Positions 6,716 to 43,361 of a stretch of 64,000 bases of DNA are shown here, piece by piece. Below the pieces are notes generated by a model that saw only the letters and a list, made by a program, of their open reading frames with translations, was not told the origin of the DNA and did not search any database. The translations under genes and the position numbers were made by a program. Each line of letters opens with the position of its first letter. Position 1 is the first letter of the stretch. Source of the stretch: Lentzea guizhouensis. Its GTDB lineage: Bacteria > Actinomycetota > Actinomycetes > Mycobacteriales > Pseudonocardiaceae. Location of the stretch: positions 8,308,001-8,372,000 of the forward strand of contig NZ_CP016793.1 of NCBI RefSeq assembly GCF_001701025.1, given 5' to 3'.

Positions 6716-6721
6716 GCGGCA

Positions 6722-6751
6722 AGGTCACCACGAGACGTTCCCCGCCGTCAA
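6722..6751 (-). promoter_or_regulatory. Promoter of GH95 (leaderless)
   Basis: On the minus strand: TTGACG (6751-6746), an 18-base spacer, TGACCT (6727-6722), then six bases to the GTG start. The -35 is good and the -10 is weak. The short gap implies a leaderless transcript, which explains the lack of a ribosome site. Confidence 0.5.
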
Positions 6752-6783
6752 GGAACTGCCGCACCGCGAGTTCGGCGACGTGC

Positions 6784-8223: not shown

Positions 8224-8229
8224 CGGCCC

Positions 8230-8259
8230 ATGAGAGCAGCGTCGCCGAGCGAGCGTCAA
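8230..8259 (-). promoter_or_regulatory. Possible leaderless promoter of GH5
   Basis: On the minus strand: TTGACG (8259-8254), an 18-base spacer, TCTCAT (8235-8230), then six bases to the ATG. The -10 is weak, but spacing and layout repeat those of the GH95 promoter. Confidence 0.4.
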
Positions 8260-8357
8260 GGCGACGAAGGTGTTTGACAGAACGTCGCCACACCCGTTCG
8301 ACAACCGAAGATCCTTTGTGGACTTCACGTGTCGTTCTGGACTGACGGGCGTAGCCG

Positions 8358-9758
8358 TCAGCCCAGCCGGAAGTCCGCGACCCGGATCGGTGACGGCGTC
8401 GTCCCGCTCGACGTCTGCTGGTACTGCACCGACAGGATCCCTTGCGACACAACGCGCGACGTGTCCACGTTGACCTCACCGAACGCCCGCAGCGACGGCC
8501 GGTCGAACACCGTCGTCCAGTCCGTCCACCCGCTCGCGCGCGAGGCCGACACGATCCTCCCGCGCGGCATCACCAGGTAGGCGTTGTCGGCGCGGTCGAA
8601 CACGATCTTCGTGCGCTGGGTGTGCCCTGGCGGGACCGGCACCTCCACCTTCGTCCAGCGGCCGTCGGCGCCGCGGTGGACGTGGAAGGTGCGGCCGTAC
8701 TGGGTGCGCTGCTGCGCATAGCTCGTGACGCACTGGGTGAACCGGCCGGGCACGTAGCTGATCACCACGTGCGGCCGGCCGGAGGAGTCCACGGCCTGGC
8801 TCTCCTGGTTCATCAGGCCGTGGTCCGGGTCGAGCGAGTCGGCGACCAGGCCGGGTGAGCCGACACCCACCGGGGTGCCGCCGGTCGTGCCCACGACGGT
8901 GCCGGCACCGTTGCGCCAGGTGCGGCCGCGGTCGTCGCTGTAGACGTAGCCGGTGTCGTGGTTGGTGAGGCCACCGGGGTTGCACAGCACGCCGGAGTTG
9001 CCCTCGCGCCAGGTGAACGCGGCGTGCAACCGGCCGCCGCGGTCGTAGGTCAGGCCGTGCAGGTACATGTTGCGGGTGGTCGACACGACGCCGTTGGGGC
9101 CGGTGTAGCTGCCGGTCGCCGACGACCACGCACCCAGCTTGCGCCAGGTCCCGCCGGTGTACTCGGCGAGCTCGTTCACGCCGTTGCCGGAGCCTCCGGT
9201 GCGGTAGCTGAACTGCAGCGCGCCCTCCGGCGTGACCACGAACTGCGGGTAGGTCATCGCGCCGAGCTCCACACCGCCCAGCGTGCGCTGCACCGCGCCG
9301 AACGACGCGGCCGTCCACGGTTGCGCGCCGGACGCGAGACCGGGGGCGGAACGAAGGTAGAACAACCGGGTGTTGTGCGTGTCCAGCGCGACGTGGATCG
9401 TGCCGTCCTGCGGCGAGATGCCCAGCGAGATCACGTTGTGCGAGTCGTTGGTGCTGAGCTGGTGCGGCAGCACCACCTTCTCCCAGCTCGCGGCACCCAC
9501 GGTCCGCCGGGCGATCACGGCGTTGCGGCTCGCGGTGTACCAGGTGGCGTACTGCCGTCCCTGGTAGGTGAGGATCGCGTCTTGCTGGAACGAGTTGTTG
9601 TTCACCACCCCGTCGTAGGAGACGAAGTACAGCGCCGAGGCGTCGAGCAGGGTGTCCGCGGCGAGGCTGACACCCGGCGCGGCCTGCGCGGGAACGGGGG
9701 TGCCCAGTGCGGCGACGAGACTGGCCGCGGTCAGCAGGTGCGCGGAAATCCTGGCCAT
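8358..9758 (-). CDS. Secreted BNR_4 beta-propeller protein (lyase- or sialidase-like)
   Basis: A 466-residue exported protein with a signal peptide (about 1-24, ending AQA-A) followed by one domain of the BNR_4 type. Recognisable propeller blades include YATWYTASRNAVIARRT, NDSHNVISLGI, TIHVALDTHNTRLFY and SYVPGRF. BNR_4 proteins include ulvan-type polysaccharide lyases and uncharacterised secreted propellers, so a glycan-degrading role is likely but unproven. No lectin module is attached. The ATG follows directly after a 23-bp inverted repeat with no ribosome site between them. The gene lies just past the EBO operon and may be expressed separately. Confidence 0.75.
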   Translation of the reverse strand: MARISAHLLTAASLVAALGTPVPAQAAPGVSLAADTLLDASALYFVSYDGVVNNNSFQQDAILTYQGRQYATWYTASRNAVIARRTVGAASWEKVVLPHQLSTNDSHNVISLGISPQDGTIHVALDTHNTRLFYLRSAPGLASGAQPWTAASFGAVQRTLGGVELGAMTYPQFVVTPEGALQFSYRTGGSGNGVNELAEYTGGTWRKLGAWSSATGSYTGPNGVVSTTRNMYLHGLTYDRGGRLHAAFTWREGNSGVLCNPGGLTNHDTGYVYSDDRGRTWRNGAGTVVGTTGGTPVGVGSPGLVADSLDPDHGLMNQESQAVDSSGRPHVVISYVPGRFTQCVTSYAQQRTQYGRTFHVHRGADGRWTKVEVPVPPGHTQRTKIVFDRADNAYLVMPRGRIVSASRASGWTDWTTVFDRPSLRAFGEVNVDTSRVVSQGILSVQYQQTSSGTTPSPIRVADFRLG

Positions 9759-9826
9759 GGTCGGCAGCGTGGTGTCGAACGGGAGCGAACGCAAGGGCGC
9801 CGTCGTTCGACACCACGCTGCCGACC
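9759..9826. repeat. Perfect 23-bp inverted repeat (terminator or operator)
   Basis: Arms 9759-9781 and 9804-9826 are exact reverse complements, with a 22-base loop. The repeat lies between the stop of the LuxR-type gene and the start codon of the BNR_4 gene, which it touches. It could end the long EBO operon transcript. There is no T-run after it in either direction, so a regulatory or protein-binding role is equally possible. Confidence 0.7.
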
Positions 9827-9846
9827 GAACCGGCGGGGCGGGCCCG

Positions 9847-10164
9847 TCACTCCCCCACTGCCTGGCGCGGCGGGGACACCACGAGCCACTCCAGCTCAGC
9901 GGCGAGCACACCGAGCTGGAAGCGGGACTGCACGCCCAGCAACGACTGCAGCCGGGCGATCCGCCGGTGCAGGGTGCGCAGGCTGACGTCCAGCTCGCGG
10001 GCGATCGCGCGGTCGGTCGCGCCGGTGCCCATGAGCCGCAACAATCGCCGGGTCGCCGCCGTGGGTTCCTTGCCCACGGCCACGGTGTGGTCCTGGCCCA
10101 CCGCGGGGACCGCCGTCAGGTGGCTGTCCCGCCGGGTGGGGCGCGGCGTGAGCGGTCTGGTCAT
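9847..10164 (-). CDS. Small LuxR-type DNA-binding protein
   Basis: A 105-residue protein whose only recognisable domain is a LuxR-type helix-turn-helix at about residues 38-95 (ATDRAIARELDVSLRTLHRR, then GVQSRFQLG). There is no receiver, ATPase or autoinducer domain, and residues 1-35 are unstructured-looking. Its ATG overlaps the stop codon of the phosphodiesterase gene (ATGA), so it is translated as the last gene of the long EBO operon. A role in feedback control of that operon is inferred from position only. It could instead be the DNA-binding remnant of a larger regulator. Confidence 0.8.
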   Translation of the reverse strand: MTRPLTPRPTRRDSHLTAVPAVGQDHTVAVGKEPTAATRRLLRLMGTGATDRAIARELDVSLRTLHRRIARLQSLLGVQSRFQLGVLAAELEWLVVSPPRQAVGE

Positions 10165-11549
10165 CGGCTGAACTCCTCTGCGGGCATGCCCTGCAGCGCT
10201 AGCAACAGGTTCCGTACTTCGGTCGCGGCGACGCGTCCGGTGCGCTCGACCGACGGCGGTGCCATCGGGTCCGAGCACAGCAGCACCGGCCCGTCGGCCG
10301 CGCGGTCGGGCGGTCTGCCGTGCGTGCCGCGCACGCACGACGGGTCCAGCGGCACGACGTTCATCGCGTACCGCAGACCGAGCTTCTTGCGGACCAGGTT
10401 CAGGCCCGCCTTGGCCTTCGCCAGCGGGTCGGCCGGGTCGAAGAACAGTTCCGCCGGGTCGTAACCCGGCTTGCGGTGGATGTCGACACCGCGGGCGAAG
10501 TCCGGCGCACGGTCGTCGTCGGTCCAGTAGTAGTAGGTGAACCAGGCGTCCGGCTCGGCCACCGCGACCAGCTCGCCGGACCGCTCGTGGTCCAGTCCGA
10601 CGGCCGCCTGCGCCTCGCGGTCGTGGAGCACGTCGACACCCGGCACCTCGGCGAGCACTGCCCGTGTGCGCGGCAGGTCGGCCGGGTCGGCGACGTACAC
10701 GTGCGCGATCTGGTGGTCGGCCACCGCGAACGCGCGGGACGTCCACGGGTCCAGGTACTCCATCCCGGCCTGCGTGTGGACCTCCAGCAACCCGGCGGCC
10801 CGCAGCGCGCGGTTGATGTCGACCGGCCGGCGGGCGTCGGTGATCCCGTACTCCGACAACGCGACCACGGTGGCGTTCGCGGCATCGGCCAGCAACGGCG
10901 CCAGCGCGCGGTCCACGTCCGCCGCAGCCTTCACCGCCTGCGGGGAGGACGGGCCGAACCGCTGCAGGTCGTAGTCCAGGTGTGGCACGTAGACCAGCAG
11001 CAGGTCGGGGCGGTGCTCGGCGAGGACCTGCCGGGCGGCACCGATGATCCACTCACTCGACGCCAGGGTCGCGGTGGGACCCCAGTACTGGAACAACGGG
11101 AACTCGCCCAGGGCACCGACGAGCTCGTCGTGCAGCCGCGGTGGGCGGACGTAGCAGTCCGGTGACTTGCGACCGTCCGCGTGGTAGATCGGCCGGGGCG
11201 TGACGGTGATGTCGGTCGACGCGCCCATCGCGTACCACCAGCAGATGTTGGCAGCGGTGTAGCCGGGCCGGAGGCGGCGGGCGGTCTCCCACAGCTTCTC
11301 GCCGCCGACGAGCCGGTTGTGCTGGCGCCACAGGTGGACCTCGCCGAGGTCGCGGAAGTACCAGCCGTTGCCGACGATCCCGTGCCCGGCCGGGGTGAGG
11401 CCGGTGAGCAACGTGGCCTGCGCGCTGCACGTCACGGCCGGCAGCACCGTGCCGAGCTCGGCCTGCCAGCCCAGCCGCGCGAGGTTCGGCATGTGGGCGA
11501 GCAACGCCGGCGTCATGCCGACGACGTTCAGCACCACCAGCGGTGTCAC
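10161..11549 (-). CDS. Alkaline-phosphatase-fold phosphodiesterase (EboF-like)
   Basis: A 462-residue member of the nucleotide pyrophosphatase/type I phosphodiesterase group. The likely nucleophile is Thr40 in LPAVTCSAQATLLTG, and metal ligands are visible in VPHLDYD (Asp192 region) and further histidine/aspartate stretches. No signal peptide or membrane segment is seen. In EBO clusters of cyanobacteria and other bacteria the matching gene, eboF, is the phosphodiesterase of a metabolite-export set. The start is GTG, overlapping the eboE stop (GTGA), and the stop overlaps the LuxR-type gene. The phosphoester it cleaves is unknown. Confidence 0.82.
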   Translation of the reverse strand: MTPLVVLNVVGMTPALLAHMPNLARLGWQAELGTVLPAVTCSAQATLLTGLTPAGHGIVGNGWYFRDLGEVHLWRQHNRLVGGEKLWETARRLRPGYTAANICWWYAMGASTDITVTPRPIYHADGRKSPDCYVRPPRLHDELVGALGEFPLFQYWGPTATLASSEWIIGAARQVLAEHRPDLLLVYVPHLDYDLQRFGPSSPQAVKAAADVDRALAPLLADAANATVVALSEYGITDARRPVDINRALRAAGLLEVHTQAGMEYLDPWTSRAFAVADHQIAHVYVADPADLPRTRAVLAEVPGVDVLHDREAQAAVGLDHERSGELVAVAEPDAWFTYYYWTDDDRAPDFARGVDIHRKPGYDPAELFFDPADPLAKAKAGLNLVRKKLGLRYAMNVVPLDPSCVRGTHGRPPDRAADGPVLLCSDPMAPPSVERTGRVAATEVRNLLLALQGMPAEEFSR

Positions 11550-12628
11550 GGCGCCACCCCCGCCGCCAGGTGCTCGTGCGCCCACCGCAGCTCCGCCGCG
11601 ATGCCGTCGGCCAGGTCGCCCGCGCCCGGCAGCACGGTCCAGGTGTAGGTCTCGACCTCGACGTGCACACCGGGGTCCACCGCGGCGACCGCGGCCACGA
11701 GCACGTCGGTGGTCGACGTGAGCGGTGCGGGCGGAACGGCGTGCAGCGGCACGTGGAAGTGCACGCGCCACGGGTGCTCGGCGGGCAGCGCGTCGAACGC
11801 CTCCGGCAGGTCGTCCGCGGCCAGCACGCCACCGGGGGCGTTCTCCCGCACCTGGTGCAGGTAGCGGGGCTCGCTGTAGGCCGCGACCGCCCGCCTGCCC
11901 TCCTCGGTGCCGGGTTCCGCGACCTCCAACGCCGCCGACGCCTGCACCTTCACCACCGCGAGCCCCGCCCGGCGGATCGACTCGACCGTCTCCACGGGAT
12001 CGGCGAACGACACCGCGAGGTGGCACGTGTCCAGGCAGATCCCGACGAACTCCGGGTCCACCCGCCCGGCGAGCCAGCCGACCGCGTCGGCGACGGTGTC
12101 GAGCACACAACCCGGTTCCGGTTCGACGGCCAGCTTGATCGGCCGGTCGGGCCGCTCGCGCAGGAACCGGGTGAGCTCGGCCAGCGCCGTCGCCGCGGTG
12201 CCGTCGTCCATCAACGTCCACGGCTCCCGCCACGCCAGCGGCAGGGTGGAGACGCTGCCGTACCCAGCGGTGTCGGGCAACAGGTCGGCCAGCACCGTCG
12301 CGCAGTCCTTCGTGTACTCAAGTCGGCGCGGGTCGGTCCACGTCGGGAAGTACACCTTGTGCTTGACGACCTCCTCGTGGAAGTCGCCGTACGGGAACGC
12401 GTTCAGCGTCGACACCGTCAGTCCGCGCGCCGCCAGTTCGGCGGCGAAGGCGCGCCGAGCGGACCGGTCCTCGGTCAGACCGCGAGCGACCGGCGCGGGG
12501 AGCCACAGCCCCAGCGGCAGCGTGTCGGCGTCCAGCGCCTCCCGCACGGGCACCGCGTACCGGTCGAGCTGCGTGAGGATGCCGGACAGGTCGGGCGCCG
12601 GGTGGACGTTGGTGCAGTAGGCGATCAC
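11546..12628 (-). CDS. eboE: Metabolite traffic protein EboE (TIM barrel)
   Basis: A 360-residue xylose-isomerase-like TIM barrel of the EboE type. Diagnostic stretches are the N-terminal MIAYCTNVHP, TLNAFPYGDFH, YTKDCATVLADLLP, LAVEPEPGCVLDT and GICLDTCHLAV, and the C-terminal HFHVPLHA. Metal ligands typical of the superfamily (Glu in VEPEPG, Asp/His in DTCHL) are present. EboE is part of the EBO set, needed in cyanobacteria for moving a scytonemin precursor out of the cytoplasm. The start is GTG, overlapping the TatD gene, and the stop overlaps the phosphodiesterase gene. The compound handled in this organism is not known. Confidence 0.9.
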   Translation of the reverse strand: MIAYCTNVHPAPDLSGILTQLDRYAVPVREALDADTLPLGLWLPAPVARGLTEDRSARRAFAAELAARGLTVSTLNAFPYGDFHEEVVKHKVYFPTWTDPRRLEYTKDCATVLADLLPDTAGYGSVSTLPLAWREPWTLMDDGTAATALAELTRFLRERPDRPIKLAVEPEPGCVLDTVADAVGWLAGRVDPEFVGICLDTCHLAVSFADPVETVESIRRAGLAVVKVQASAALEVAEPGTEEGRRAVAAYSEPRYLHQVRENAPGGVLAADDLPEAFDALPAEHPWRVHFHVPLHAVPPAPLTSTTDVLVAAVAAVDPGVHVEVETYTWTVLPGAGDLADGIAAELRWAHEHLAAGVAP

Positions 12629-13479
12629 CGCTCACCCCGCAGCACCGAGCTGCCGGTGGCCGCGTCGACCGCGCCCGCCGCCACCGGGTCGAGCGCGAGC
12701 CGGCCGCTCTGGCCGTAGAACTCAACCGGGTTGTGCCACAACACCTTCTCGACGTCGGCGGCGCTGAACCCCGCGTCGAGCATCGCCAGCCCGGTCTTGC
12801 GGGTCTTCAACGGGTCCGAGCGGCCCCAGTCGGCCGCGGAGTTGACCAGCATCCGGTCGGTGCCGTGCTCGGTGAGCAGCGCGACCATCCGCTTCTCGTC
12901 CATCTTCGTGTCGGGGTAGACGGAGAACCCCGTCCAGCAGCCCGCGTCCGCGACCATCCGCACGGTGGTCTCGTTGAGGTGGTCGACGAGCACCCGCTCC
13001 GGTGCCAGGCCGGACTCGCGGACCACGTCGAGCGTCCGCCGGGTGCCCGCCTGCTTGTCGCGGTGCGGCGTGTGCACGAGCACCGGGAGGTCGTGCCGCA
13101 CGGCCAGTTCCAGCTGGTGGGCGAACGCGTCGTCCTCCTCCGGCGTCATCGAGTCGTAGCCGACCTCGCCGACCGCGACCACGCCGTCCTTGGCCAGGTA
13201 GCGCGGCAGCACGTCGAGCACCTCGACGCACCGCGGGTCGTTGGCCTCCTTGGGGTTCAACGCGAGCGCGCAGTGGTGGGCGATTCCGAACTGGGCGGCG
13301 CGGAAGCGTTCCCACCCGAGCAGGGCGTCGAAGTAGTCGACGAACGACCCGACGCTTGTGCGCGGCTGGCCGAGCCAGAACGCGGGCTCGACGAGTGCCT
13401 CCACCCCGGCGTCGCGCATGGCCTCGTAGTCGTCGGTCGTGCGGGACGTCATGTGGATGTGCGGGTCGAAGATGCGCAT
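12625..13479 (-). CDS. TatD-family metal hydrolase (EboB-like)
   Basis: A 284-residue amidohydrolase-fold protein related to TatD. It has the metal-binding HxH near the N terminus (DPHIHMTS), VGEVGYD with the bridging Glu, HTPHRDK, DHLNE and the late Asp in NSAADWGRSD. The corresponding EBO gene is eboB. Its ATG overlaps the EboA stop by one base (TGATG) and its stop overlaps the EboE GTG. The reading frame also continues open upstream into the isomerase, but the start here is set by the conserved N terminus MRIFDPHIH. The substrate is unknown. Confidence 0.87.
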   Translation of the reverse strand: MRIFDPHIHMTSRTTDDYEAMRDAGVEALVEPAFWLGQPRTSVGSFVDYFDALLGWERFRAAQFGIAHHCALALNPKEANDPRCVEVLDVLPRYLAKDGVVAVGEVGYDSMTPEEDDAFAHQLELAVRHDLPVLVHTPHRDKQAGTRRTLDVVRESGLAPERVLVDHLNETTVRMVADAGCWTGFSVYPDTKMDEKRMVALLTEHGTDRMLVNSAADWGRSDPLKTRKTGLAMLDAGFSAADVEKVLWHNPVEFYGQSGRLALDPVAAGAVDAATGSSVLRGER

Positions 13480-14012
13480 CACGAAGCCTTTCCGAGCAGG
13501 GCCAGGGCGTCGGCGGGCACGGGACGGCCGGCGGCTCGGCGTTCCTCGGCGAACGCGGCCACCATGCGCAGCAGCTCGGGGTCCGACTGCCGGTCCAGGC
13601 CGTCGACCACGGTCAGCGGGATGCCCATGAACAGGCACTTGAGCACGCCGTGGCGCCACGCGTGCCGGCCCAGGTGCCGGGTGGCGAACGCGCCGAGCGC
13701 CGCGGCGACCAGGCCGGTCTCGTTGCTGCGCAACGCGTCCTCGACCAGCGCGACACCGGCGGGAGCCCGGTCGCCCAGCTCGGCGAGGCCGTGCAGGACA
13801 CCGCGCCGTTCGGCGGAGGTGCCGTACCGGTAGAGCCGGGTGAGGCCGTCGACCGGGTCCTCGGACGCCTCGGCGAACGCGGTGAGCAGCCGGACCTGGC
13901 CGCGTCCTCCCCGCGCCGACCGCCCTGCCACGGCCGGGAACAGGGTGTCGATCGCGTCCGGATCGGCCCGCACCGCCCGTTCGGCCTCGGCCAGCCACCG
14001 CGCGGCCCGCAA
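13479..14012 (-). CDS. eboA: EboA domain protein, start unclear
   Basis: About 177 residues matching the EboA helical family: RWLAEAERAVRADPDAI, TLFPAVAGR, LTRLYRYGTSAERRGVL, VEDALRSNETGLVAAALG and HAWRHGVLKCLFMGIPL. EboA is of unknown biochemistry but always travels with the EBO genes. No ATG or GTG fits its N terminus; a TTG at 14012 or CTG at 14021 are the only nearby starts. The upstream isomerase frame runs into this point without a stop. A one-base shift near 14020 would join the two into one protein. So this is a fusion broken by a frameshift, an unusual start, or a sequence error. Confidence 0.72.
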   Translation of the reverse strand: MRAARWLAEAERAVRADPDAIDTLFPAVAGRSARGGRGQVRLLTAFAEASEDPVDGLTRLYRYGTSAERRGVLHGLAELGDRAPAGVALVEDALRSNETGLVAAALGAFATRHLGRHAWRHGVLKCLFMGIPLTVVDGLDRQSDPELLRMVAAFAEERRAAGRPVPADALALLGKAS

Positions 14013-14022
14013 CGCCCGCAGC

Positions 14023-14799
14023 GCGGGCCGCCACGTCCGGCGCGGCGTGGCTGTGCCGGGGCAGCTCGACCGCGGCGACGCCGGTGTAGCCGATGTCGGT
14101 GAGCGCGCCGAGGGTGGCGGGCAGGTCGAGGTGCCCGTCGCCGAACTCCAGGTGCTCGTGCACGCCGGGCAGCATGTCGTCGAGCTGCACGTTGACCAGC
14201 AGCTCGCCCGCCTGCCGGATGCACGCCGCCGCGTCCTGCGGTTCGACGGCGACGCAGTGGCCGACGTCGAGGGTGACCCGCAGCTGCTCGGGGTCGCCGA
14301 GCTCGGTGCGCAGCCGCAGCGCCTGCTCCAGCCACTGCACGACCATGCCGGGTTCCGGTTCGAGTCCGATGGGGACGGACGGGCCGTTCTCCAGCACCGC
14401 GGCCACACCCGAGCGCAGGTGGTCCCAGTCGTCCGGCGAGCCGGTGCCCGACCAGAACGACACGCAGTCCGCGCCGAGGTCCGCCGCGATCCGCTTGGCC
14501 CGCACCAGGAAGTCGACCCGGCGGTCCTGGCCGGTGCTCACCAGCGTCGGGTGGTGCTTGCGGCGCGGGTCGAGCAGGTACCGGGCGCCGGTCTCCACCA
14601 CGACGCGCAGACCGAGCTGCTGCAGGCGGGTGGCGACACGTTCTGTCTGCCGGGTGACGTCGTCGGCGAACGGGTCGAGGTGGTGGTGGTCGAGGGTCAG
14701 CGCCACGGCGGTGTACCCGAGATCGGCGATCACGGCGAGCGCGTCGTCGAGGCGGTGGTTGCTGAACCCGTTGGTGCCGTAGCCGAGGTGGAACGTCAT
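14023..14799 (-). CDS. TIM-barrel sugar phosphate isomerase/epimerase, no stop seen
   Basis: About 259 residues of an AP-endonuclease-2-type TIM barrel: YGTNGFSNHRLDDAL, LTLDHHHLDPFAD, CVSFWSGTGSPDDW, GLEPEPGMVVQW, TLDVGHCVAVEP, VQLDDM and VELPRHSHAAPDVA. Metal ligands (Glu in LEPEPG, Asp/His in DVGH, Gln in VQLDD, Glu in VELPRH) are intact. The ATG overlaps the UbiA stop (ATGA). Similarity ends at about 14023 without a stop codon; the same frame stays open through the EboA region into the TatD gene, which cannot reflect a real protein there. This gene is the second TIM barrel of the EBO set. Confidence 0.78.
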
Positions 14800-15573
14800 G
14801 TCGGGCTCACCCTCCTGCTCAGCGCCTGCGCCAGCGGCAGCACGACCGGCAGCGCGGCACCGTGCTCGGCGAGCGCGGACTGCAGCAGCACCATGCCGTG
14901 GACGCCCTCCTTCGTGGCGGTGCGGACCTTCTGCGCGGTGGGGTCGCGGACCACGTCCCACTGCGCGCGTCCGACCGCCACCGCGTAGCCCAGCGCCGCC
15001 GCGATCCCGGGGATCCGCCGGGACGACACGGCCGCGGCGACCGCGGTGAGGACCGTGCCCGACAACACCGCCTTCGCCGTGGCGGGAGACGTGCCGTGCA
15101 CCTCGCCGCGCGACAGCACCGTGACGCCCAGGGTGTGCGCGGCCATCAGCCCGGCAGGCAGCACGGCCCGCCCACCCAGCAGGACGTCGAGCGCGCGGCA
15201 CGCGGCCATCGCGAACGGGCCGGCGGGCGTGGCCTTCAACGCGGTGTCATAGGCCCACACGGCCGGCGAGCGGCAGTGCGTTGCGCCCGGCGGCCGCGGC
15301 GAGACCGACACCGAGCGCGGTCAGGCCCGCCGCCGTCGCGAGCGCCGCGTCCGGTGCGACCCGCCCGGACGGGATCGGGCGCTCCGGCCGTTCGACCGCG
15401 TCCAGCTCCCGGTCCGCCCAGTCGTTGAGCGCCATCCCGGCCCAGTACAGCGACACCGACGCCAGCGGCAGCAACAGACCTCTGCCCCGCAGCGGTTGCC
15501 GTGCACCGATCAGGGTGTCGCCCAGCACGGTGAGCGCCGCCGGCGCGCGCACCAGCTCCACGTACGCCTTCAT
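14796..15573 (-). pseudogene. UbiA prenyltransferase (EboC/SCO3242 type), frameshifted
   Basis: A membrane prenyltransferase split by a one-base insertion (or two-base loss) in the GGCCGGC run at 15261-15267. The first part holds the start MKAYVELVRAPAALTVLGD, two hydrophobic segments and the first Asp-rich motif NDWADRELD. The second part, in another frame, continues with VWAYDTALKATPAGP, ALDVLLGG, HTLGVTVLSRGEVHG and an intact C terminus. Joined, it would have about 259 residues, normal for this family. UbiA enzymes transfer isoprenoid chains to aromatic or sugar acceptors; EboC has this role in EBO clusters. The start lies eight bases after the binding-protein gene and the stop overlaps the isomerase ATG. 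Confidence 0.82.
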
Positions 15574-15581
15574 CACCCCGG

Positions 15582-16775
15582 TCACTTCCACGGCGCGGGG
15601 TAACCGGGCATCTGCTCACAACCGCACATCGCGTAGTGCAGCGGTGGCATGTCCTGCTTGATGAAGTCCTTCAGCGTGTCCTGGGTGACCTTCGGCTGCG
15701 GCAGCACCCACTCGCGCGGCACCTGCCTGCCGCCGAGCACGCGCAGCGCGGCGATGACCGGTGTGCGCCACTGGTAGGTCGGGTAGGTCGGGGCGACCGC
15801 CGTCATTCCCTCGTCGGCCCAGATGCGCAGGAAGTCCTGCTGGTCCTCGCCCACGAACGGCGGAATGGCCACGCCGGCGTCCTGGAACGCCTCGACCGCG
15901 GCGACGGCGGTGGCACCGGCGTCCATCCAGACGCCGTCGATCTTGCCCTCGCGCTGGATGTACTCGTTGACGATGCTCTTGGTCTTGGCGGCGTCGCCGT
16001 CGGTGAACTCGACCCCGACGACCTTCACCTGGCTGCCGGAGAAGACCTCGTCGGCCGCGGCCCAGCGCTGCTCCAGCACGTCCACGCCGGGCAGGATGCG
16101 CAGCGCGAGGACCTTGCCTCCCGGAGCCACCTTCTCCTTGAGGAACTCGGCGCCGTCGGCACCGAACGCGAACCCGCCGATCGGGTGGATGAACGTGACC
16201 GGGCAGCTCGTCTTGACGCCGCGGTCGAACACGATCACCGGCACGCCCGTCGCGCACGCGGCCTCGACCGCCGGGGTGAGCGTGGCGGTGGTGTTCGGCG
16301 AGACGACGAGCGCGCTGCAGCCCTGGGAGGCGAGCGACTGGATGTCGCTGATCTGCTTGTCGTCCTTGGCCTCCGCGTCCAGCACGGTGAACTTGGTGAT
16401 CTCCGGGTGCAGCTTCACCTCCTCCTGCATGGTCTTGAACCCGACCTGCCGCCACGGGTTGTCGACCGAGGCGTTGGAGAAGCAGAGGTGGTACCCGCCG
16501 CCGGGCTTGGCGTACTTGGCCGTGTCGACGAGCTCGGGTTCGAGCGCCTGCTCCCAGGGCCCGGCCGTGCCGTCCTGGCCGTCGAGCCCGGTCGCCTTGG
16601 CGGTGCGGAACCGCAGCTGGCGCGCGAACTCGGTCTGGTCGAAGAACTCCGACTTGGCGTTCGCCTTCGCCGGTCCGGAGCTGCCGCCGGTGCCGGTGTC
16701 GGCGGGAAGGTCGCTGGAGCACCCGGCCAACGCCAACGCACCGGCCAGTGCCACAACGGGCCAATTCCTCTTCAT
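15582..16775 (-). CDS. Sugar ABC importer substrate-binding lipoprotein
   Basis: A 397-residue binding protein with a clear lipobox (ALAGC, Cys19) after the signal MKRNWPVVALAGALA. The rest is a ribose-binding-type two-lobe fold (LCFSNASVDNPWRQVG, VSPNTTATLTP, VIVFDRG, DGVWMDAGATAVAAVEA). It delivers a sugar-like ligand to the two permeases encoded just upstream. The ATG has GAGGAG before it. It sits between the permease genes and the UbiA gene, so importer and EBO genes share one transcript. The ligand cannot be told from sequence; several extra cysteines near the C terminus (MCGCEQM) are unusual for the family. Confidence 0.9.
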   Translation of the reverse strand: MKRNWPVVALAGALALAGCSSDLPADTGTGGSSGPAKANAKSEFFDQTEFARQLRFRTAKATGLDGQDGTAGPWEQALEPELVDTAKYAKPGGGYHLCFSNASVDNPWRQVGFKTMQEEVKLHPEITKFTVLDAEAKDDKQISDIQSLASQGCSALVVSPNTTATLTPAVEAACATGVPVIVFDRGVKTSCPVTFIHPIGGFAFGADGAEFLKEKVAPGGKVLALRILPGVDVLEQRWAAADEVFSGSQVKVVGVEFTDGDAAKTKSIVNEYIQREGKIDGVWMDAGATAVAAVEAFQDAGVAIPPFVGEDQQDFLRIWADEGMTAVAPTYPTYQWRTPVIAALRVLGGRQVPREWVLPQPKVTQDTLKDFIKQDMPPLHYAMCGCEQMPGYPAPWK

Positions 16776-16834
16776 GTGCTGCTCCTCGGCTTCTTCGACG
16801 GGGCTCAGACGTGTGGTCGGGACAGGTGGTGCGG

Positions 16835-17836
16835 TCAGATTCTGTCCACAGTGGACGGTTTCGCAGTGGGTCGGCGCCGCGGGAACAACCGGCGCAGTGC
16901 GGCACCGCGGGCGGCGTAGGCCACGGCGGCGATGATGATCACGCCCTGCACCGCGGACTCCAGCGCGCCGGACACACCGAGCAGGTTCAACAGGGAGAAC
17001 AGCGCTTCCAGCGTCACCGCGCCGGCGGCAGCGGCGACCACCGAACCCCGGCCGCCACCGAGCACGACCCCGCCGAGCACCACCGCGGTGATGGCGCGGA
17101 ACTCGAGCCCCTGGCCGACCTGGGCGGAGACCCCGGCGAACCCGGCGAGCAGGATCGCCGCGACCGTGGCGAGCAGCGCCGACAGCACGAACGCGAGCAG
17201 CCGCAACCGGTCGACCCGGCCGCCCGCGAGCCGGACGGCCTTCTCGTTGTCCCCCACCGCGACGAGCAGGCGCCCGGTCGGGCCGCGCATGAACCACACC
17301 GCCGCGCCGACCACGACCAGCAGGACGACCACCGACCACGGCACCTGCCCGAGCAGTGGCACGTCGGCACCGCCCCGGCCGGCCACGCGGAACGACGGCG
17401 ACAGCGCACCGCGCGGTGCGCCACCGGTCCACAGGAACACCGCACCGTCGAGGACCAGCAGCATCCCGAGCGTCACGATGAACGACGGCACCAGCAGCTT
17501 CGTGGTGACCAGCCCGTTGACCAGGCCGACCAGCAGCCCGAAGCCGAGCAGCAGCGCGATCACCCACGAGGTGTTCGCGTCGTCACCGTCGACGAGCCGG
17601 GCCGCGATCACCACCTCGGCCGTGACGAGCGAGCCGACCGAGAGGTCGAACCCACCCGACACGACGACGAAGTACTGCCCCACCGCGAGCACCACCAGCG
17701 GCGCCGCTCGCTTCAGCAACGCGAGGTAACCGCTCGGCTCGGCGTACGCGGGACCGGCGAAAGCCAGTGCCGCCAGCAGGACCACCAGCACGACCAGCAC
17801 GGGTGCCGTGCCGTCGGCGAGCCGCAGCCGGGTCAC
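16835..17836 (-). CDS. Sugar ABC importer permease (RbsC type)
   Basis: A 333-residue integral membrane protein with eight to ten hydrophobic segments and the BPD_transp_2 signature (GGFDLSVGS near residue 65, then VGDNEKAVRLAG and VLGGVVLGGGRG). It forms the channel with the second permease at 17833. The GTG start overlaps the stop of that gene (GTGA). A 59-base gap follows before the binding protein gene. The C terminus is strongly basic, as expected for a cytoplasmic tail. Confidence 0.9.
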   Translation of the reverse strand: MTRLRLADGTAPVLVVLVVLLAALAFAGPAYAEPSGYLALLKRAAPLVVLAVGQYFVVVSGGFDLSVGSLVTAEVVIAARLVDGDDANTSWVIALLLGFGLLVGLVNGLVTTKLLVPSFIVTLGMLLVLDGAVFLWTGGAPRGALSPSFRVAGRGGADVPLLGQVPWSVVVLLVVVGAAVWFMRGPTGRLLVAVGDNEKAVRLAGGRVDRLRLLAFVLSALLATVAAILLAGFAGVSAQVGQGLEFRAITAVVLGGVVLGGGRGSVVAAAAGAVTLEALFSLLNLLGVSGALESAVQGVIIIAAVAYAARGAALRRLFPRRRPTAKPSTVDRI

Positions 17837-18834
17837 GCCTGCCTCCCCGTGTGCCGGCCGCGGGCGTACAGCGCCACCGCCACGACGAGCACGACACCGC
17901 GCACGACGTCCTTGAAGAACGAGTTCACCCCGAGGTCGTCGAAGATCGTGTCCAGCGTGGCCAGGATCAGCACCCCGCCGATGGTCCCGGCCACTCCGCC
18001 GCGACCGCCCGCGAGCGCTGTGCCGCCGAGCACGACGGCGGCGATGGACTCCAGGTCGTAGCCGGCGTCGGTGCCGACGTACGGTGCGCCGGAACCCAGC
18101 CGCGAGGCCAGGAACACCCCGGCGAGACCGGCCATGACGGCGCACACGACGTGCGCCGTGACGATCGTCCGCCCGGTGCGCACCCCGGACAGCCGGGCCA
18201 CGTCGATGTCACCGCCGACGGCGTACATGTGGTAGCCGGTGCGGGTGCGCCGCAGGTACCACCAGGCCGCCGCCGCGAGCGCCAGCATCAGCAGCGCGGA
18301 CACCGGGACGGGGCCGATGCGGTCGTAGCCGACGTGCTGGAACGCACGCGGCACGCTGCCGGCCGGTCCGGTGTAGTTGTGCTCCAGATAGCCGCGCAGC
18401 ACCAGCGCGACGCCCAGCGTGGCGATGAACGCGTTCGCCTTCAGGACGGTGATCACCAAACCGTTGACCAGTCCGACCACTGCCGCGACGGCCAGCGCCG
18501 CCAGCACGCCGGGCACGATCATGGCCGTGCTGCCCGCCATGGTCTCGGCGGCGACGAGCGAGCACAGGCCCGCGAGGTAGGCCACGGACAGGTCGAGCGA
18601 GCCGGTGACGATCACCAGCGTCTGCCCGATCGCGACCAGGCCGAGCACCGTGCTGCGGGTGAGGATGTTGAGGACGCCGCCGTGGTCGAGGAGCACTCCC
18701 CCGTCGAGCGCCACCAGCACGCTGCCGACGACGAGCAACGCCGCCAGCGCCAGGTAGACGACCACGACCGGGGTGAACGCGAACGCGCGGTGCCGCACGG
18801 GCAGCTCGCGGGCCGCCACGCCTGCGGCGCTCAC
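17833..18834 (-). CDS. Sugar ABC importer permease (RbsC type)
   Basis: A 333-residue BPD_transp_2 permease, the partner of the 16835 gene. Visible signatures are GSLDLSVAYLAG, LKANAFIATLGVALVLRG, MYAVGGDIDVARLSGV and VLGGTALAGGRGGVAGT. Two different permease genes with one ATPase indicate a heterodimeric channel. The GTG start overlaps the end of the ATPase gene (GTGA), so the three are translationally coupled. Confidence 0.9.
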   Translation of the reverse strand: MSAAGVAARELPVRHRAFAFTPVVVVYLALAALLVVGSVLVALDGGVLLDHGGVLNILTRSTVLGLVAIGQTLVIVTGSLDLSVAYLAGLCSLVAAETMAGSTAMIVPGVLAALAVAAVVGLVNGLVITVLKANAFIATLGVALVLRGYLEHNYTGPAGSVPRAFQHVGYDRIGPVPVSALLMLALAAAAWWYLRRTRTGYHMYAVGGDIDVARLSGVRTGRTIVTAHVVCAVMAGLAGVFLASRLGSGAPYVGTDAGYDLESIAAVVLGGTALAGGRGGVAGTIGGVLILATLDTIFDDLGVNSFFKDVVRGVVLVVAVALYARGRHTGRQA

Positions 18835-20313
18835 GCGGGTTCTCCGACCAGGTGGCCGGTGGCCAGGCCCATCACGGTCTCCTCGTCGGCACCGGCGGGC
18901 AGCTCGCCCGCGAGAGTTCCCTCGCGCATCACGAGGATCCGGTCGCTCAGCCCGATCAGCTCCGGCAGCTCGGAGGAGATCAGCAGGATCGCGAGGCCTT
19001 CCGCCGCCAGGTCGCGCAACAGCCGGTACAGCGCGTGCTTCGCGCCGACGTCGACACCGCGGGTCGGCTCGTCCACGAGCAGCACGCGCGGCCGCACGGC
19101 GAGCCACCTGGCCAGCACGACCTTCTGCTGGTTGCCGCCGGAGAGGTAGCGCACCTCCTGGTGCGGACCCCGTGCGACGACGGCGACCGAGTCGAGGAGC
19201 GACCGCAGGTCGGTGTCACGGCGGGAGGCCGCGCCCCGAGCGGTCGCGCGGCGGACCAGCAAGGTGTTGTCCCGCACCGACTGCCGCAACGCGAGCCCTT
19301 CGCCCTTGCGGTCCTCGGTGACGAAGCCGATGCCCTTGCGCACCGCCGTCCGCGGACCGGTGACGCGGGTCGGCACGCCGTCGAGCTCCAGCGTCCCGGT
19401 GGTGAACGGCTCCACGCCCCAGATCGCCCGCGCGATCGCGGACCGGCCGGAGCCCTGCAGCCCGGCGACACCGACGACCTCGCCCGCCCGCACCTCGAAC
19501 GTCAGGTCCCGCACCCGGCTGTTGCCCGCGGCGCGCACCGCCAGCCGCACCTCACCGGGCTCGGTGACGCGCCCGGGATAGAGCGTCTCGAGTGGACGGC
19601 CGACCATGTGCCGCACGACCTGGTCGGTGGTCAGCTCGGCGGTCGGCGCGGAGGTGACGAACGCGCCGTCCTTGAGCACCGTGATCCGCGAGCTGAGGTC
19701 GAACACCTCGCGCATCCGGTGCGACACGTACAGAACGGCGATCCCGCGGTCGCGCAGCCTGCGCACCAGGCCGTACAGCAGCTCGACCTCGCCGTCGGCC
19801 AGCGCGGCGGTCGGCTCGTCCATCGCGAGGACCGTGGCGTCCGCCGACAGCGCCTTGACGATCTCCACGACCTGCTTGCGCGCCACGGACAGCCGCGCCA
19901 CCTCGGTGCCGGGCTCGATCCCCTCCTCGCCCAGCCAGCCGAGCAGCCGCCGGGTCTCCGCCTCCATCGCGCGCCGGTCCACCTGGCCGCGGCGCACGGG
20001 TTCGCGCCCGAGGAAGACGTTCTCGGCCACCGCGGTGCTCGAGCAGCGTGAGCTCCTGGTGGATGATCGCGATGCCCGCGGCCTGCGCGTCCCGCGGCGC
20101 GGCGAACGACACCTCCTCGCCGCCGACGACGACCCGGCCCTCGTCCGGCCGGTGCACGCCCGCCAGCACCTTGAGCAGGGTGGACTTGCCCGCGCCGTTC
20201 TCCCCCACCAGCGCGTGGACCTCTCCTGCCCGCAGGACGAGGTCGACGCCGCGCAGCACCGGCACGCCGAAGAAGCTCTTGCCGATCCCCTCCAGCCGCA
20301 CGACGTCCGTCAT
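18831..20313 (-). pseudogene. Sugar ABC importer ATPase (RbsA type), frameshifted
   Basis: A double-domain sugar-import ATPase broken after residue 93. The first part holds MTDVVRLEGIGKSF, Walker A GENGAGKST and IHQELTLLEH; the rest resumes in another frame with AVAENVFLGREPVRRG, then MDEPTAAL, LYVSHRM, the second nucleotide domain, LSGGNQQKVVLAR and LLVDEPTRGVDVG. The break is in the CGCGG stretch at 20031-20036 and is best explained by loss of two bases from a CG repeat. Repaired, the protein would have about 493 residues, normal for RbsA/MglA. It is the first large gene of the operon; its ATG overlaps the stop of a 12-codon leader ORF. Confidence 0.85.
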
Positions 20314-20348
20314 GCCGCCACCCCCGGTGTTACGCGGGTCACAGTCAT
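20310..20348 (-). CDS. 12-codon leader ORF coupled to the importer operon
   Basis: A short reading frame, ATG to TGA, encodes MTVTRVTPGVAA. Its ATG lies six bases after the -10 TACGTT, so it would be at the very 5' end of the message, and its TGA overlaps the ATG of the ATPase gene (ATGA). That geometry suggests a leaderless ORF that delivers ribosomes to the ATPase start. The peptide itself shows no run of rare or repeated codons that would mark an attenuator. No homologue is known to me. Confidence 0.45.
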   Translation of the reverse strand: MTVTRVTPGVAA

Positions 20349-20354
20349 GAGGCG

Positions 20355-20384
20355 AACGTAGAGCCGACTATTGGCGGCTGTCAA
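20355..20384 (-). promoter_or_regulatory. Promoter of the importer-EBO operon
   Basis: On the minus strand: TTGACA (20384-20379), an 18-base spacer, TACGTT (20360-20355), then six bases to an ATG. This is a near-consensus housekeeping promoter. It overlaps TTGGCG repeats that probably bind the divergent ROK regulator. Confidence 0.75.
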
Positions 20385-20409
20385 TCAAAAGTTGGCGATT
20401 CACTGCCAA
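20371..20409. promoter_or_regulatory. TTGGCG repeats, probable ROK operator
   Basis: The divergent control region holds TTGGCGG at 20371 and an inverted pair TTGGC-N8-GCCAA at 20392-20409. They overlap the -35 of the leftward operon and the -35/spacer of the ROK gene, so one bound regulator could shut both. CCGCCAAA also occurs at 27857, upstream of the operon next to the second ROK gene. Confidence 0.5.
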
Positions 20410-20427
20410 AGCACACATGTCTTCGGG

Positions 20428-21645
20428 ATGAACATCGCCATTACTCCGTCTATTTGGTTCACTGATCCGGTGCCGGACGTACCTTGGGCCCCTGCGGCGT
20501 CTCCTGGACAGCTGCTGCGGCTGCTGCTCGACGGAGTGCCACGCACCCGCGCCGAGCTGGCGAACCAGACGGGCCTGACCCGTGCCGCGGTCCGGACCCG
20601 GCTCGACGCGTTGCAGGGGGCGGGGTTCCTCACCGACGGCGTGATCACGGTGGCGACCGGTGGCCGGCCGGCCGGGCGGCTCGCGTTCAACGCGGGCGCG
20701 CGCACGGTCCTGGCCGCCGACGTCGGCGCCAGCCACGCCACGGTCGCCGTCACCGACCTCGCCGGTGGCCTGCTGGCGTCCCGCCGGCTCGCCCTGGACG
20801 TGGCGACGGGCCCGGAACGCGTCCTGGGGGCGCTGGCCAGGACCTGGCGGGAGATGGTGAGCGAGGCCGGGCTGTCCGCGGTGTCGCTCGCCGGTGTCGG
20901 CATCGGTCTGCCCGGTCCGGTCGAGCACTCCACCGGGCGGCCGAACAACCCGCCGATCATGCCGACCTGGAACGGCTTCGACGTGCCCGGCCACCTGCGG
21001 GCCGAGTTCGGCGTGCCGGTGCTGGTGGACAACGAGGTCAACCTGATGGCGCTGGGCGAGCACGCGCACTCGTTCCCCGGCACCGACCACATGATCGTGG
21101 TGAAGGTGGCGACCGGCATCGGCTCCGGCTTCATCAGCAACGGCGTCCTGCACCGCGGCGCGGCCGGCGCGGCGGGGGACCTCGGCCACATCCGGGTGCC
21201 CGACGGCGACGACGCCGACTGCGGCTGCGGCAACTCCGGCTGTCTGGAGGCCGTCGCGAGCGGGTCCGCGGTCGCGGCCCGGCTGCGTGCCAAGGGAGTC
21301 GACGCGCACACGAGCGCCGACGTGGTCGCACTGGTCCGCGCGGGCAACGTCGAGGCGGGCCAGGCGATCCGGCAGGCCGGCCGCACCATCGGCGAGGTGC
21401 TCGCCGCGTGCGTCAGCATGGTCAACCCCTCGCTCATCGTGGTCGGCGGCGACCTCGCCGCGGCCGGCGAGATGCTGCTGGCCGGGGTGCGGGAGGCGGT
21501 CTACCGGCGTTCGCTGCCGCTGGCCACGGAAAACCTGCGCATCGTGCCGTCACGGACCGGCGAGGTGGCCGGCGTGCTCGGTGCGGCGGCCATGGTGATC
21601 CACCACGTCCTGTCCCCCGCCGTCGTGGACCAGCAGCTGGGCTGA
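20428..21645 (+). CDS. ROK-family transcriptional regulator
   Basis: A 405-residue regulator: an N-terminal winged helix (about 28-75: RTRAELANQTGLTRAAVRTR) and a ROK sugar-kinase-like domain with DVGASHATVAVTD and the zinc motif CGCGNSGCLE. ROK repressors bind a sugar and release DNA. ATG 20428 is chosen because TTGGCG-N17-ACATGT ends seven bases before it; TTG 20371 and GTG 20470 are in-frame alternatives. It is divergent from the importer-EBO operon, its likely target. It is a close paralogue of the ROK gene at 27852; both contain PGPVEHSTGRPNNPPIMP. Its 3' end faces the polyprenyl synthetase gene at 18 bases. Confidence 0.9.
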   Translation: MNIAITPSIWFTDPVPDVPWAPAASPGQLLRLLLDGVPRTRAELANQTGLTRAAVRTRLDALQGAGFLTDGVITVATGGRPAGRLAFNAGARTVLAADVGASHATVAVTDLAGGLLASRRLALDVATGPERVLGALARTWREMVSEAGLSAVSLAGVGIGLPGPVEHSTGRPNNPPIMPTWNGFDVPGHLRAEFGVPVLVDNEVNLMALGEHAHSFPGTDHMIVVKVATGIGSGFISNGVLHRGAAGAAGDLGHIRVPDGDDADCGCGNSGCLEAVASGSAVAARLRAKGVDAHTSADVVALVRAGNVEAGQAIRQAGRTIGEVLAACVSMVNPSLIVVGGDLAAAGEMLLAGVREAVYRRSLPLATENLRIVPSRTGEVAGVLGAAAMVIHHVLSPAVVDQQLG

Positions 21646-21663
21646 GGTGTGCGGCCGAGGACG

Positions 21664-22661
21664 TCAGCGGTCCCTCGCCACGACCAGCCTGGCCAGTGCG
21701 TGCAGTTCCGCGGCGCCGGCGGGGTGCGGGTGCGCCTGCCGGAGGCAGTCGAACGCCTGCCGCACCCGGCGGTCCGCCTCGGCCTCCGCCAGGCCCGTCC
21801 GCCGGCTTCGGCCACGAGGCGGGCGATCTCCTCCGGTCCCCCGGTGTCCTCCGGCCGGTGGGCCTCGCCGTAGAGCCGCGCCACCCTGCGCGCCTCCGGC
21901 GAGTCCGCGGCGAGCGCCGCCACGACGGGCAAGGACCGGCGGCGCGCACGGATGTCGGCGTGGGCCGGTTTCCCGGTCCTGGCCGGGTCGCCCCAGATGC
22001 CGAGCAGGTCGTCAACCGCCTGGAACGCGACCCCCAGGTGCACACCGAACCCGCGGTGGTGCTCGGCCACGCACTCGTCGGCCCCCGCGGCCACGGCCCC
22101 GAGCCGGCACGCCGCACCGAGCAACGCACCCGTCTTGCGCTCCGCCGTCACGAGGCAGTCCGCCGGCGACGCCGACAGCGCCGCCACGTCCGCCGACTGC
22201 CCCTCGCACAGCTCGACCAGCACGTCCGCGAGCACCCGAGCCACCTCGGGCGGGACCTGGCGCAGCGCGAGACCGATCAACGCGTCCCCGGCGAGGATCG
22301 CCGCCGTGGTCCCGAACGCCACCCACGCGGACGGCCGGTGCCGCCGCGTCTCATCGCCGTCCATGACGTCGTCGTGCAGGAGCGAGAAGTCGTGCAGCAG
22401 CTCGACCGCTGTGGCCGCCGCGACCACATCGGACGAGACCCCACCGCCGGCCGCACGAGCACTCGCGAGCGTCAGCGCGGGACGCAACGCCTTCCCCGTC
22501 GCCCGCGCAGGCCGTCCGTCCGCGTCCCACCACCCGATGTGGTACCCGGCGACCCGCCGCAACGCGGGCCCGAGCCCGTCGACCGCCGCCCGCTGCACCG
22601 GGTCGACCACCGCACGTGCCTCGGTCAGGAGCCGCACCGGGTCAACCGCGAGATCTCCCAC
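21664..22661 (-). CDS. Polyprenyl synthetase, C-terminal frameshift
   Basis: A trans-isoprenyl diphosphate synthase that builds chains from IPP. It has the region ATGKALRPAL, the first Asp-rich motif LLHDDVMDGDE and the second VDDLLGIWGD. Up to about residue 290 the frame is normal; at 21794-21797 a G appears lost from a short run, after which the correct C terminus (GLAEAEADRR, then LHALARLVVARDR and stop at 21664) reads in another frame. Uncorrected, translation would run about 96 unrelated residues to 21501. The GTG start lies three bases after the stop of the membrane coiled-coil gene, so the two are one operon. It could supply the nearby UbiA enzyme. Confidence 0.82.
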
Positions 22662-26900: not shown

Positions 26901-26931
26901 TGCCACTCCTCCGGGGTGGTGATGCGGTCGG

Positions 26932-43242: not shown

Positions 43243-43361
43243 CCGGTCACTCCCGTCCACAGCCGACCAGGCACGCGACCGCGCACAGGTGAGCCAACCA
43301 TCGAGTCCTCCGAGCCCGGCAACCGCTGTGCCAACAAGAAAATCAAGCCTTCCGAACCGTC

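Follow-up and report, generated by a model that had tools for sequence, protein, structure and literature searches.

An EBO operon behind sugar-importer genes in Lentzea guizhouensis, a candidate form of an actinobacterial EBO variant with INO1 in place of EboD

A stretch of 64,000 nucleotides from Lentzea guizhouensis (NZ_CP016793.1, positions 8,308,001 to 8,372,000; the whole stretch is called the window hereafter), whose source genome is a single contig of 10 Mb, was analyzed. Reading of open reading frames (ORFs) and Pfam/NCBIfam profile searches revealed a close-packed leftward run, at 20313–9847, of genes for a CUT2 (ribose-type) sugar importer followed by EBO genes. EBO clusters elsewhere usually contain EboD, a sugar phosphate cyclase, and a few are without it (PMC5133447; this and the other papers given by PMC number are cited for parts of their text). 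A tblastn search with one EboD query gave no match in the window. Because EboD was not found, the operon is, on its gene content, filed here as an EBO variant and not as a canonical EBO cluster, and sequence evidence suggests that in the actinobacterial variant EboD is replaced by INO1, a dedicated archaeal-type inositol-phosphate synthase (MIPS). We put at about 0.5 the probability that the operon represents this variant in Lentzea and that its product, deduced from the genes, would be an isoprenoid-inositol lipid. The first-pass annotation had proposed that the imported compound, or its prenylated derivative, is the EBO substrate. Import as the source of the EBO cyclitol was dropped as the leading explanation, since 94 of the 111 distinct EBO loci contained INO1, coupled to the prenyltransferase gene, against 28 with an importer; by these same counts glucose-6-phosphate is the best explanation for the origin of the cyclitol, which is probably made within the cell.

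INO1 and EboD in actinobacterial EBO loci

Loci were collected by means of EboE. Among the overlapping samples searched, a protein above the EboE cut-off occurred in 44 of 200 genomes at the order level, 9 of 24 at the genus level, 18 of 396 for the phylum, and 5 of 249 and 5 of 66 for two further classes; six of 49 EboE-bearing genomes of the order sample are not represented among the loci. Two sets, one of 80 loci and one of 49 selected by us, were reduced to 111 by dropping 12 and 2 loci, respectively, in which the sequence upstream of EboE was shorter than 5.5 kb, and then four duplicates. Left out of the 49 were L050, L053, L055–L058 and L064 (EboE standing apart from any other EBO gene), the broken EBO locus L106 and 18 stretches of nine Lentzea loci. 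L108 and L110, two EBO loci that each contain INO1, Gfo and importer parts, stand outside the 111, as do L280–L284; L109, L111 and L285–L287 stand outside the analysis, and L107 is a stub of 10 bases. Presence was scored by tblastn at bit thresholds that we set: 150 for INO1, 80 for the UbiA-type prenyltransferase, 200 for the hydratase-like TIM barrel and for the Gfo/Idh/MocA oxidoreductase (Gfo), and 120 for glucose/sorbosone dehydrogenase (GSDH)/ThuA, while an importer needed two of ATPase (150), permease (80) and sugar-binding protein (SBP; 80). The controls were 40 stretches of 20 kb at hand-picked round-number positions in 15 genomes, one (G012) with a sub-cut-off EboE only.

Besides INO1, the 111 loci contained UbiA in 109, TatD in 110, GSDH/ThuA in 63, the hydratase-like TIM barrel in 45, Gfo in 31, a CUT2 importer (at least two parts) in 28 and a prenyl synthase in 25. 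The controls gave 0 for every marker except prenyl synthase (1), with a single importer part in one stretch. Since sampling was uneven, with many Streptomyces and Amycolatopsis, these counts are not independent events; the INO1-bearing loci among all 80 of the first set span 35 genera by our own count from record titles and matches. INO1 was the best-kept partner of the EBO genes, immediately preceding UbiA and in most cases running into its start, and the importer was less kept. In the two locus sets, INO1 and UbiA had the same strand and order in all loci holding both (54/54 and 45/45), with a start/stop overlap (-1 or -4) in 45 of 54 and 36 of 45, respectively.

With the same query, EboD was detected in only one of the 129 loci (L090) and also in L280; the EboD side thus draws on published work and these two loci, and the genomes searched were all within the phylum. 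One family (f56) holds both types: L090 and L280 read EboD-h100-TatD-EboE-UbiA-phosphodiesterase (PDE), with no INO1 in view and the contig of L280 starting just before EboD, and L282 and L283 read INO1-UbiA-TIM-EboA-TatD-EboE-PDE, with no EboD. In L283, parts of a CUT2 importer and a Gfo-like gene (188 bits) were present as well; the fifth locus of the family, L281, had EboE alone. EboD was found in no INO1 locus.

The cluster INO1 contained both MIPS Pfam domains (PF07994 and PF01658), and its nearest PDB entry was the MIPS of A. fulgidus (1u1i, E 5e-59). One asparagine and four lysines of the active site were kept in 28 of 28 cluster INO1 sequences; deposited variants of 1u1i carry mutations at three of these five sites, and the remaining two, both lysines, we take to be catalytic. 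Identity between the cluster INO1 and the other genomic copy was 22.7%. Another INO1-family gene was present in 15 of 15 INO1-EBO genomes checked, that of G271 being of a different type, and the EboD-type genome had one copy only. In the tree, 16 canonical copies lay on one side of a fully supported branch, with the 28 cluster copies and one odd row, L249, on the other.

The operon in the window and its broken frames

The genes run in the order ATPase, permease, permease, SBP, UbiA-type, TIM:EboA, TatD-type, EboE, PDE and small helix-turn-helix (HTH) protein. The features of this region are as follows.

20379–20384, minus strand: promoter-like TTGACA within a block conserved 5′ of importer 1 in 9 of 10 aligned loci
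18831–20313, minus strand: CUT2/ribose-type ATPase of importer 1, AraG/RbsA-like, under equivalog cut-offs; frame broken near 20032
17833–18834, minus strand: CUT2 permease 1 (PF02653), GTGA overlap with the ATPase
16835–17836, minus strand: CUT2 permease 2 (PF02653), GTGA overlap
15582–16775, minus strand: sugar-binding protein SBP1 (PF13407); nearest PDB entries ribose/sugar-binding proteins, E about 1e-16
14796–15573, minus strand: EboC-like UbiA-type intramembrane prenyltransferase, C-terminal piece matching NF045897 at 140.6 bits; frame broken near 15264
13479–14799, minus strand: TIM barrel (ketose-3-epimerase-like) and EboA helical domain in one fused gene (PF01261, NF035938); frame broken near 14024
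12625–13479, minus strand: EboB-like TatD-family metal hydrolase (PF01026)
11546–12628, minus strand: EboE, xylose-isomerase-like TIM barrel (NF035939, 399.9 bits, cut-off 250)
10161–11549, minus strand: EboF-like phosphodiesterase/pyrophosphatase (PF01663, 1e-61)
9847–10164, minus strand: small LuxR-type HTH protein of 105 amino acids (aa), PF00196 (GerE) exactly at cut-off
20371–21645, plus strand: ROK-family regulator, divergent, start codon uncertain (PF00480, 1.5e-58)

From the ATPase end, the nine junctions read from the sequence were -4, -4, +59, +8, -4, -1, -4, -4 and -4. Seven of the nine overlap, in agreement with the first-pass description of genes mostly joined by ATGA/GTGA-type overlaps, and the ROK gene to which it had ascribed control of the operon does diverge from it. 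The number of genes is ten and not the eleven counted before: EboA is not a separate gene, because TIM-EboA is a single ORF of 440–442 aa in nine of nine other Lentzea loci. The UbiA, TIM barrel, EboA, TatD, EboE, phosphodiesterase and HTH domains listed for the EBO half were otherwise all found. The importer, described as a complete ribose-type one, has the two-domain ATPase, BPD_transp_2 permeases and Peripla_BP_4 SBP of the CUT2 type, but the ATPase frame is broken in this assembly. Downstream of the operon (4454–9911) are GH95, GH5/ricin and BNR_4 genes, labelled also in G215 and in none of the eight other Lentzea loci read.

The join between the importer and EBO halves, from SBP1 to UbiA, measured 8 bp in the window and 2–12 bp in the eight other Lentzea loci in which both genes adjoin; in the ninth, the second locus of Lentzea nigeriaca (G213a), INO1 sits between them. 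No terminator-like site was detected within the operon, the single one being upstream of it, no terminator or promoter was found between the halves, and the stretch around the 59-bp gap did not fold above the shuffled control (194 of 200 shuffles equal or better). A TTGACA-containing block 5′ of the ATPase was kept in nine of ten aligned Lentzea loci including the window, G213a deviating; a strict promoter scan gave no match, this block included. The ROK gene was called near importer 1 in eight of nine other Lentzea loci (not in G211), with a Gfo-like gene between the two in G213a, and the small HTH gene was present in eight of nine. The possibility that the join is peculiar to this strain was rejected, and a search for conserved adjacency across genomes found it in 9/9 other Lentzea loci and 28/111 actinobacterial EBO loci against 0/40 controls. 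Within the genus Lentzea, importer and EBO genes form one conserved unit.

Compared with its relatives, the window alone had 2-bp gaps at 20032 (ATPase), 15264 (UbiA) and 14024 (TIM-EboA), and a further 2-bp deletion relative to the nearest relative at 30056, all in GC-rich spots; the 3′ end of the prenyl synthase described below was also off-frame. In the nine other Lentzea loci the ATPase was one ORF of 488–504 aa, and UbiA was called at 232–261 aa in eight and at 137 aa in G205. Frameshifts in four genes would be expected if the operon were decaying and non-functional in this strain. However, the remaining operon frames are open, the ATPase and TIM-EboA frames are intact in other Lentzea, and two more 2-bp gaps (6163 and 6883) occurred in a random syntenic stretch of about 17 kb of the same genome (L229), although the rate is rough, one of two random stretches being syntenic with a relative. 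Because similar gaps recur there, assembly error is likelier than decay; the 2-bp deletions are likely systematic assembly errors, and decay is improbable. Loss of CGCG-type hexamers was considered as their cause, and motif counts showed no clear difference between the window and its relatives.

The intact UbiA orthologue in G215 scored 305.9 bits against the SCO3242-family model NF045897 (cut-off 260), and its next-best models included geranylgeranylglycerol-phosphate geranylgeranyltransferase (57 bits, under cut-off). The UbiA thus appears to belong to a sister family rather than to EboC proper; NDxxDxxxD was invariant in 12 aligned sequences. The EboA domain matched NF035938 at 144 bits (cut-off 50) and the EboA subfamily model NF035937 at 48 bits (cut-off 320). 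The AF2 model of the G215 TIM-EboA orthologue had a pLDDT of 92, with a ketose-3-epimerase-like barrel, and that of EboA a pLDDT of 97, with mostly helical-repeat matches and nothing better than E 0.36 in the PDB. The TatD-type and phosphodiesterase proteins carry the PF01026 and PF01663 domains of EboB and EboF, respectively, their orthology being judged by neighbourhood. It was also noticed that EboE-family TIM barrels scoring above the family cut-off, with no other EBO genes beside them, lie about 10 kb or less from CUT2 genes (L050, 9371–10528; L056, 9387–10589; L281, 9442–10644), with zinc-type alcohol dehydrogenase genes beside those of L050 and L056; such EboE relatives may act on imported polyols.

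The supercluster and its glycoside module

The run at 9847–20348 delimited by the first-pass annotation is real and ends too early, as related genes continue at 21.6–43.3 kb. Same-strand genes upstream, up to 43260, include a prenyl synthase, ThuA/GSDH, a second ROK gene, INO1, a hydratase-like TIM barrel, Gfo and a second CUT2 importer, so that INO1 lies 16 kb from the EBO operon within a supercluster of 33 kb.

21650–22661, minus strand: polyprenyl diphosphate synthase, 3′ part off-frame and end estimated (PF00348; NF041169 and NF045549, both under cut-off)
23409–26906, minus strand: ThuA, GSDH, PKD, CBM6 and ricin protein, probably secreted (PF06283, PF07995)
26932–27777, minus strand: ketose 3-epimerase-like TIM barrel
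31287–32990, minus strand: ThuA, 3-keto-disaccharide hydrolase and ricin protein, probably secreted (PF06283, 1.4e-80; PF06439, 1.1e-40)
33028–35865, minus strand: GSDH with PKD, CBM6 and ricin, probably secreted (PF07995)
36204–37367, minus strand: INO1, archaeal-type inositol-phosphate synthase, second genomic copy (PF07994 and PF01658; 1u1i, E 5e-59)
37405–38412, minus strand: TIM barrel related to 2-hydroxy-3-keto-glucal hydratase, SCO6571-like (2zds, 6e-177; 8ro4, 4e-38)
38441–39598, minus strand: Gfo/Idh/MocA oxidoreductase, levoglucosan-dehydrogenase-like (NF052479, 368.7 bits, cut-off 650; 4h3v, 6a3f)
39612–40655, minus strand: SBP2 of the second CUT2 importer (PF13407)
40700–41731, minus strand: permease of the second CUT2 importer (PF02653)
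41728–43260, minus strand: ATPase of the second CUT2 importer (PF00005)

The top NCBIfam model of the prenyl synthase was a family 2 encapsulin cargo polyprenyl transferase, under cut-off.

Within the sequence available for each, seven of nine other Lentzea loci showed most of the supercluster again, the exceptions being G200, where the contig ends early, and G213a, where the order differs. In G213a a single run reads ATPase-permease-permease-SBP-INO1-UbiA-TIM:EboA-TatD-EboE-PDE-hydratase-like TIM, with overlaps of 4 at both INO1-UbiA and PDE-TIM. Two Amycolatopsis loci (L116 and L117) and the genus g25 have the order importer 2-Gfo-INO1-UbiA-TIM:EboA-TatD-EboE-PDE-GSDH/ThuA-hydratase-like TIM, with the prenyl synthase after PDE in g25. 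Because importer, INO1 and EBO genes are contiguous in G213a and related orders occur in Amycolatopsis and g25, the layout in the window resembles a common arrangement that has been split and enlarged. In Amycolatopsis a multicopper-oxidase gene follows the EBO/glycoside genes (L116, 17647–18663), and in the EBO locus of [Actinomadura] parvosata (L171) the TIM and PDE labels appear twice, perhaps from split genes.

The importer neighbours resemble 1) levoglucosan dehydrogenase, the Gfo protein falling under the cut-off of that model, 2) 2-hydroxy-3-keto-glucal hydratase, the TIM barrel matching 8ro4 over residues 18–333 and having as its top match 2zds, an entry titled SCO6571, and 3) a 3-keto-disaccharide hydrolase, the PF06439 domain being fused to ThuA. 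A 239-aa TIM barrel of Amycolatopsis L116 matched 8tcs, 8tcd and 8bvk, which are presumably eliminases. The PDB relatives of SBP1 were too distant to assign its ligand. Since its neighbours resemble 3-keto-glycoside enzymes, the importer looks like part of an accessory glycoside module for uptake and 3-keto-type cleavage of a glycoside.

Two other relations between importer and EBO genes were considered. If the importer brought in a sugar or cyclitol for the EBO enzymes to prenylate or modify, one would account for the conserved run with its short SBP-UbiA spacing in Lentzea, for importers near EBO genes in 28 of 111 loci and none of 40 controls, and for the lone EboE-family proteins within 10 kb of CUT2 genes in L050, L056 and L281. 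We consider this unlikely: 26 of the 28 importer loci also hold INO1 and therefore have a home-made cyclitol at hand, 83 loci have no importer in view, and the proteins encoded beside the importer resemble enzymes of the 3-keto-glycoside kind. Alternatively, 3-keto-glycoside catabolism and EBO might be independent pathways sharing a neighbourhood or a regulator and no metabolite, as might be suggested by the 39 of 111 EBO loci without any of the four module markers, by the 83 without an importer, and by Arthrobacter-like loci with the importer some 6–10 kb from the EBO genes on mixed strands. Yet at least one module marker was present in 72 of 111 loci, each marker being absent from the 40 controls; in several genera INO1-UbiA-EBO has Gfo on one side and GSDH/hydratase-like genes on the other, and 11 loci (duplicates not removed) show an overlap of 1 or 4 between PDE and the hydratase-like TIM, which makes full independence rather doubtful.

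Known systems and a proposed pathway

The eboABCDEF cluster of cyanobacteria, Bacteroidetes and eustigmatophyte plastids shares with the Lentzea operon an EboA domain, TatD-type EboB, UbiA-type EboC, EboE, PF01663 EboF and tight operon structure (PMC5133447, PMC6282210), whereas in Lentzea EboD was not found, INO1 is present instead, TIM and EboA are fused, and a CUT2 importer and glycoside genes are attached. A fusion of EboA with a TIM barrel in Actinobacteria has been mentioned, with data not shown, and an isoprenoid-cyclitol proposal for EBO has been published (PMC5133447); UbiA enzymes of EBO-type clusters have been assayed (PMC9235831). In view of these two reports, the first-pass statement that EBO clusters are without known enzymology is slightly too strong. 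With the levoglucosan/3-keto-glycoside pathway (lgdA-B1-B2-C, PMC7676230; AtOGE/AtHYD, PMC10628242), in which oxidation, elimination, hydration and reduction are encoded beside a sugar ABC transporter, the supercluster shares Gfo, sugar-phosphate-isomerase-like TIM barrels and a sugar ABC importer, to which a 3-keto-disaccharide hydrolase domain is added here; it differs in the embedded INO1 and EBO genes and the sub-cut-off Gfo. Two further likenesses are to the SCO3242-family prenyltransferases of Actinobacteria (NF045897), whose cut-off the intact UbiA of the relative exceeds, and to archaeal lipid enzymes. In the PDB, INO1 is closest to the MIPS of A. fulgidus, and UbiA shows a weak relationship to DGGGP synthase (6m31), although the present proteins are bacterial and UbiA falls far under the cut-offs of the corresponding models. 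A literature search found no function for the SCO3242 family, SCO3242/SCO3243 being named in transcriptome papers, and no paper linking EBO and INO1, most subscription papers and preprints lying outside its scope and SCO6571 being no search target; in the text available, the word inositol is absent from PMC6282210 and PMC9235831 and myo-inositol from PMC5133447.

By analogy with these systems, a pathway can be proposed. INO1, as predicted from its kept active-site residues, would convert glucose-6-phosphate into inositol phosphate, and a polyprenyl synthase, a related gene being near in 25 of 111 loci, would provide prenyl diphosphate. The EboC-like UbiA would then attach the prenyl chain to inositol or its phosphate within the membrane, in a manner akin to that of DGGGP synthase, which acts on a phosphorylated polyol. 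More speculatively, EboF might remove the phosphate and EboE, TIM-EboA and TatD might reshape the cyclitol, with EboA as a helical scaffold. The CUT2 importer(s), Gfo, hydratase-like TIM, ThuA/3-keto-disaccharide hydrolase and GSDH may form an accessory module working via 3-keto sugars, which would most simply supply glucose to INO1 or recycle the sugar of the lipid; in Lentzea an additional importer precedes the EBO half, and a single promoter-like block, flanked by the ROK gene, lies ahead of both.

Several observations weigh against this proposal. The UbiA of G215 reached only 123.3 bits with the EboC model (cut-off 250), its similarity to DGGGP synthase in the PDB was weak (E 5e-4), and the second Asp-rich motif was not kept. 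A MIPS relative, 6k96, named five-membered-cyclitol-phosphate synthase, makes another cyclitol; support for the 28 cluster INO1 as one clade was only 54/30, because of one long-branch row; and EboF occurs in both types, although a phosphate remains on the ring with INO1 and not with EboD. The glycoside module is linked to EBO by neighbourhood only, the importer is not in view in 83/111 loci, and genes of this very strain carry frameshifts. Furthermore, INO1 did not exceed the threshold in 17 of 111 loci, namely two of Lentzea (with INO1 further upstream), 12 of Streptomyces, L093, L061, which has a weak match of 58 bits, and L090, in which EboD is present; nor was INO1 found in the broken locus L106, outside the counts. 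Inositol-monophosphatase and amine-oxidase-like genes lie upstream in six of the 12 INO1-less Streptomyces (L150, L158, L159, L161, L163 and L185), several with a P450 gene downstream, and in L093; the monophosphatase fits inositol without being proof of it, and such loci perhaps make a different product.

The ebo genes of cyanobacteria move the scytonemin monomer to the periplasm, for which a lipid-carrier model has been put forward (PMC6282210). A comparable carrier here, moving a metabolite across the membrane for the secreted GSDH/ThuA step, would be in keeping with GSDH/ThuA in 63 of 111 loci. We give this explanation a low probability, and it is compatible with the isoprenoid-inositol product, which could itself be the carrier.

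More broadly, and as a tentative proposal held with less confidence than the assignment of the Lentzea operon, EBO may be a general pathway for isoprenoid-cyclitol membrane lipids with an interchangeable ring-maker, EboD in cyanobacteria and Bacteroidetes and archaeal-type INO1 in Actinobacteria; the actinobacterial product would then be a prenyl-inositol (phosphate) lipid resembling archaeal lipids, its sugar part built or recycled by the coupled 3-keto-glycoside import module. A ring-maker of a different family in the place of EboD, tightly coupled to the prenyltransferase, would lend independent support to the isoprenoid-cyclitol proposal and name the likely EBO ring, inositol, in culturable actinobacteria. 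The vague label of metabolite traffic would thereby become concrete hypotheses open to assay, namely INO1 activity, inositol as the prenyl acceptor and a prenyl-inositol lipid.

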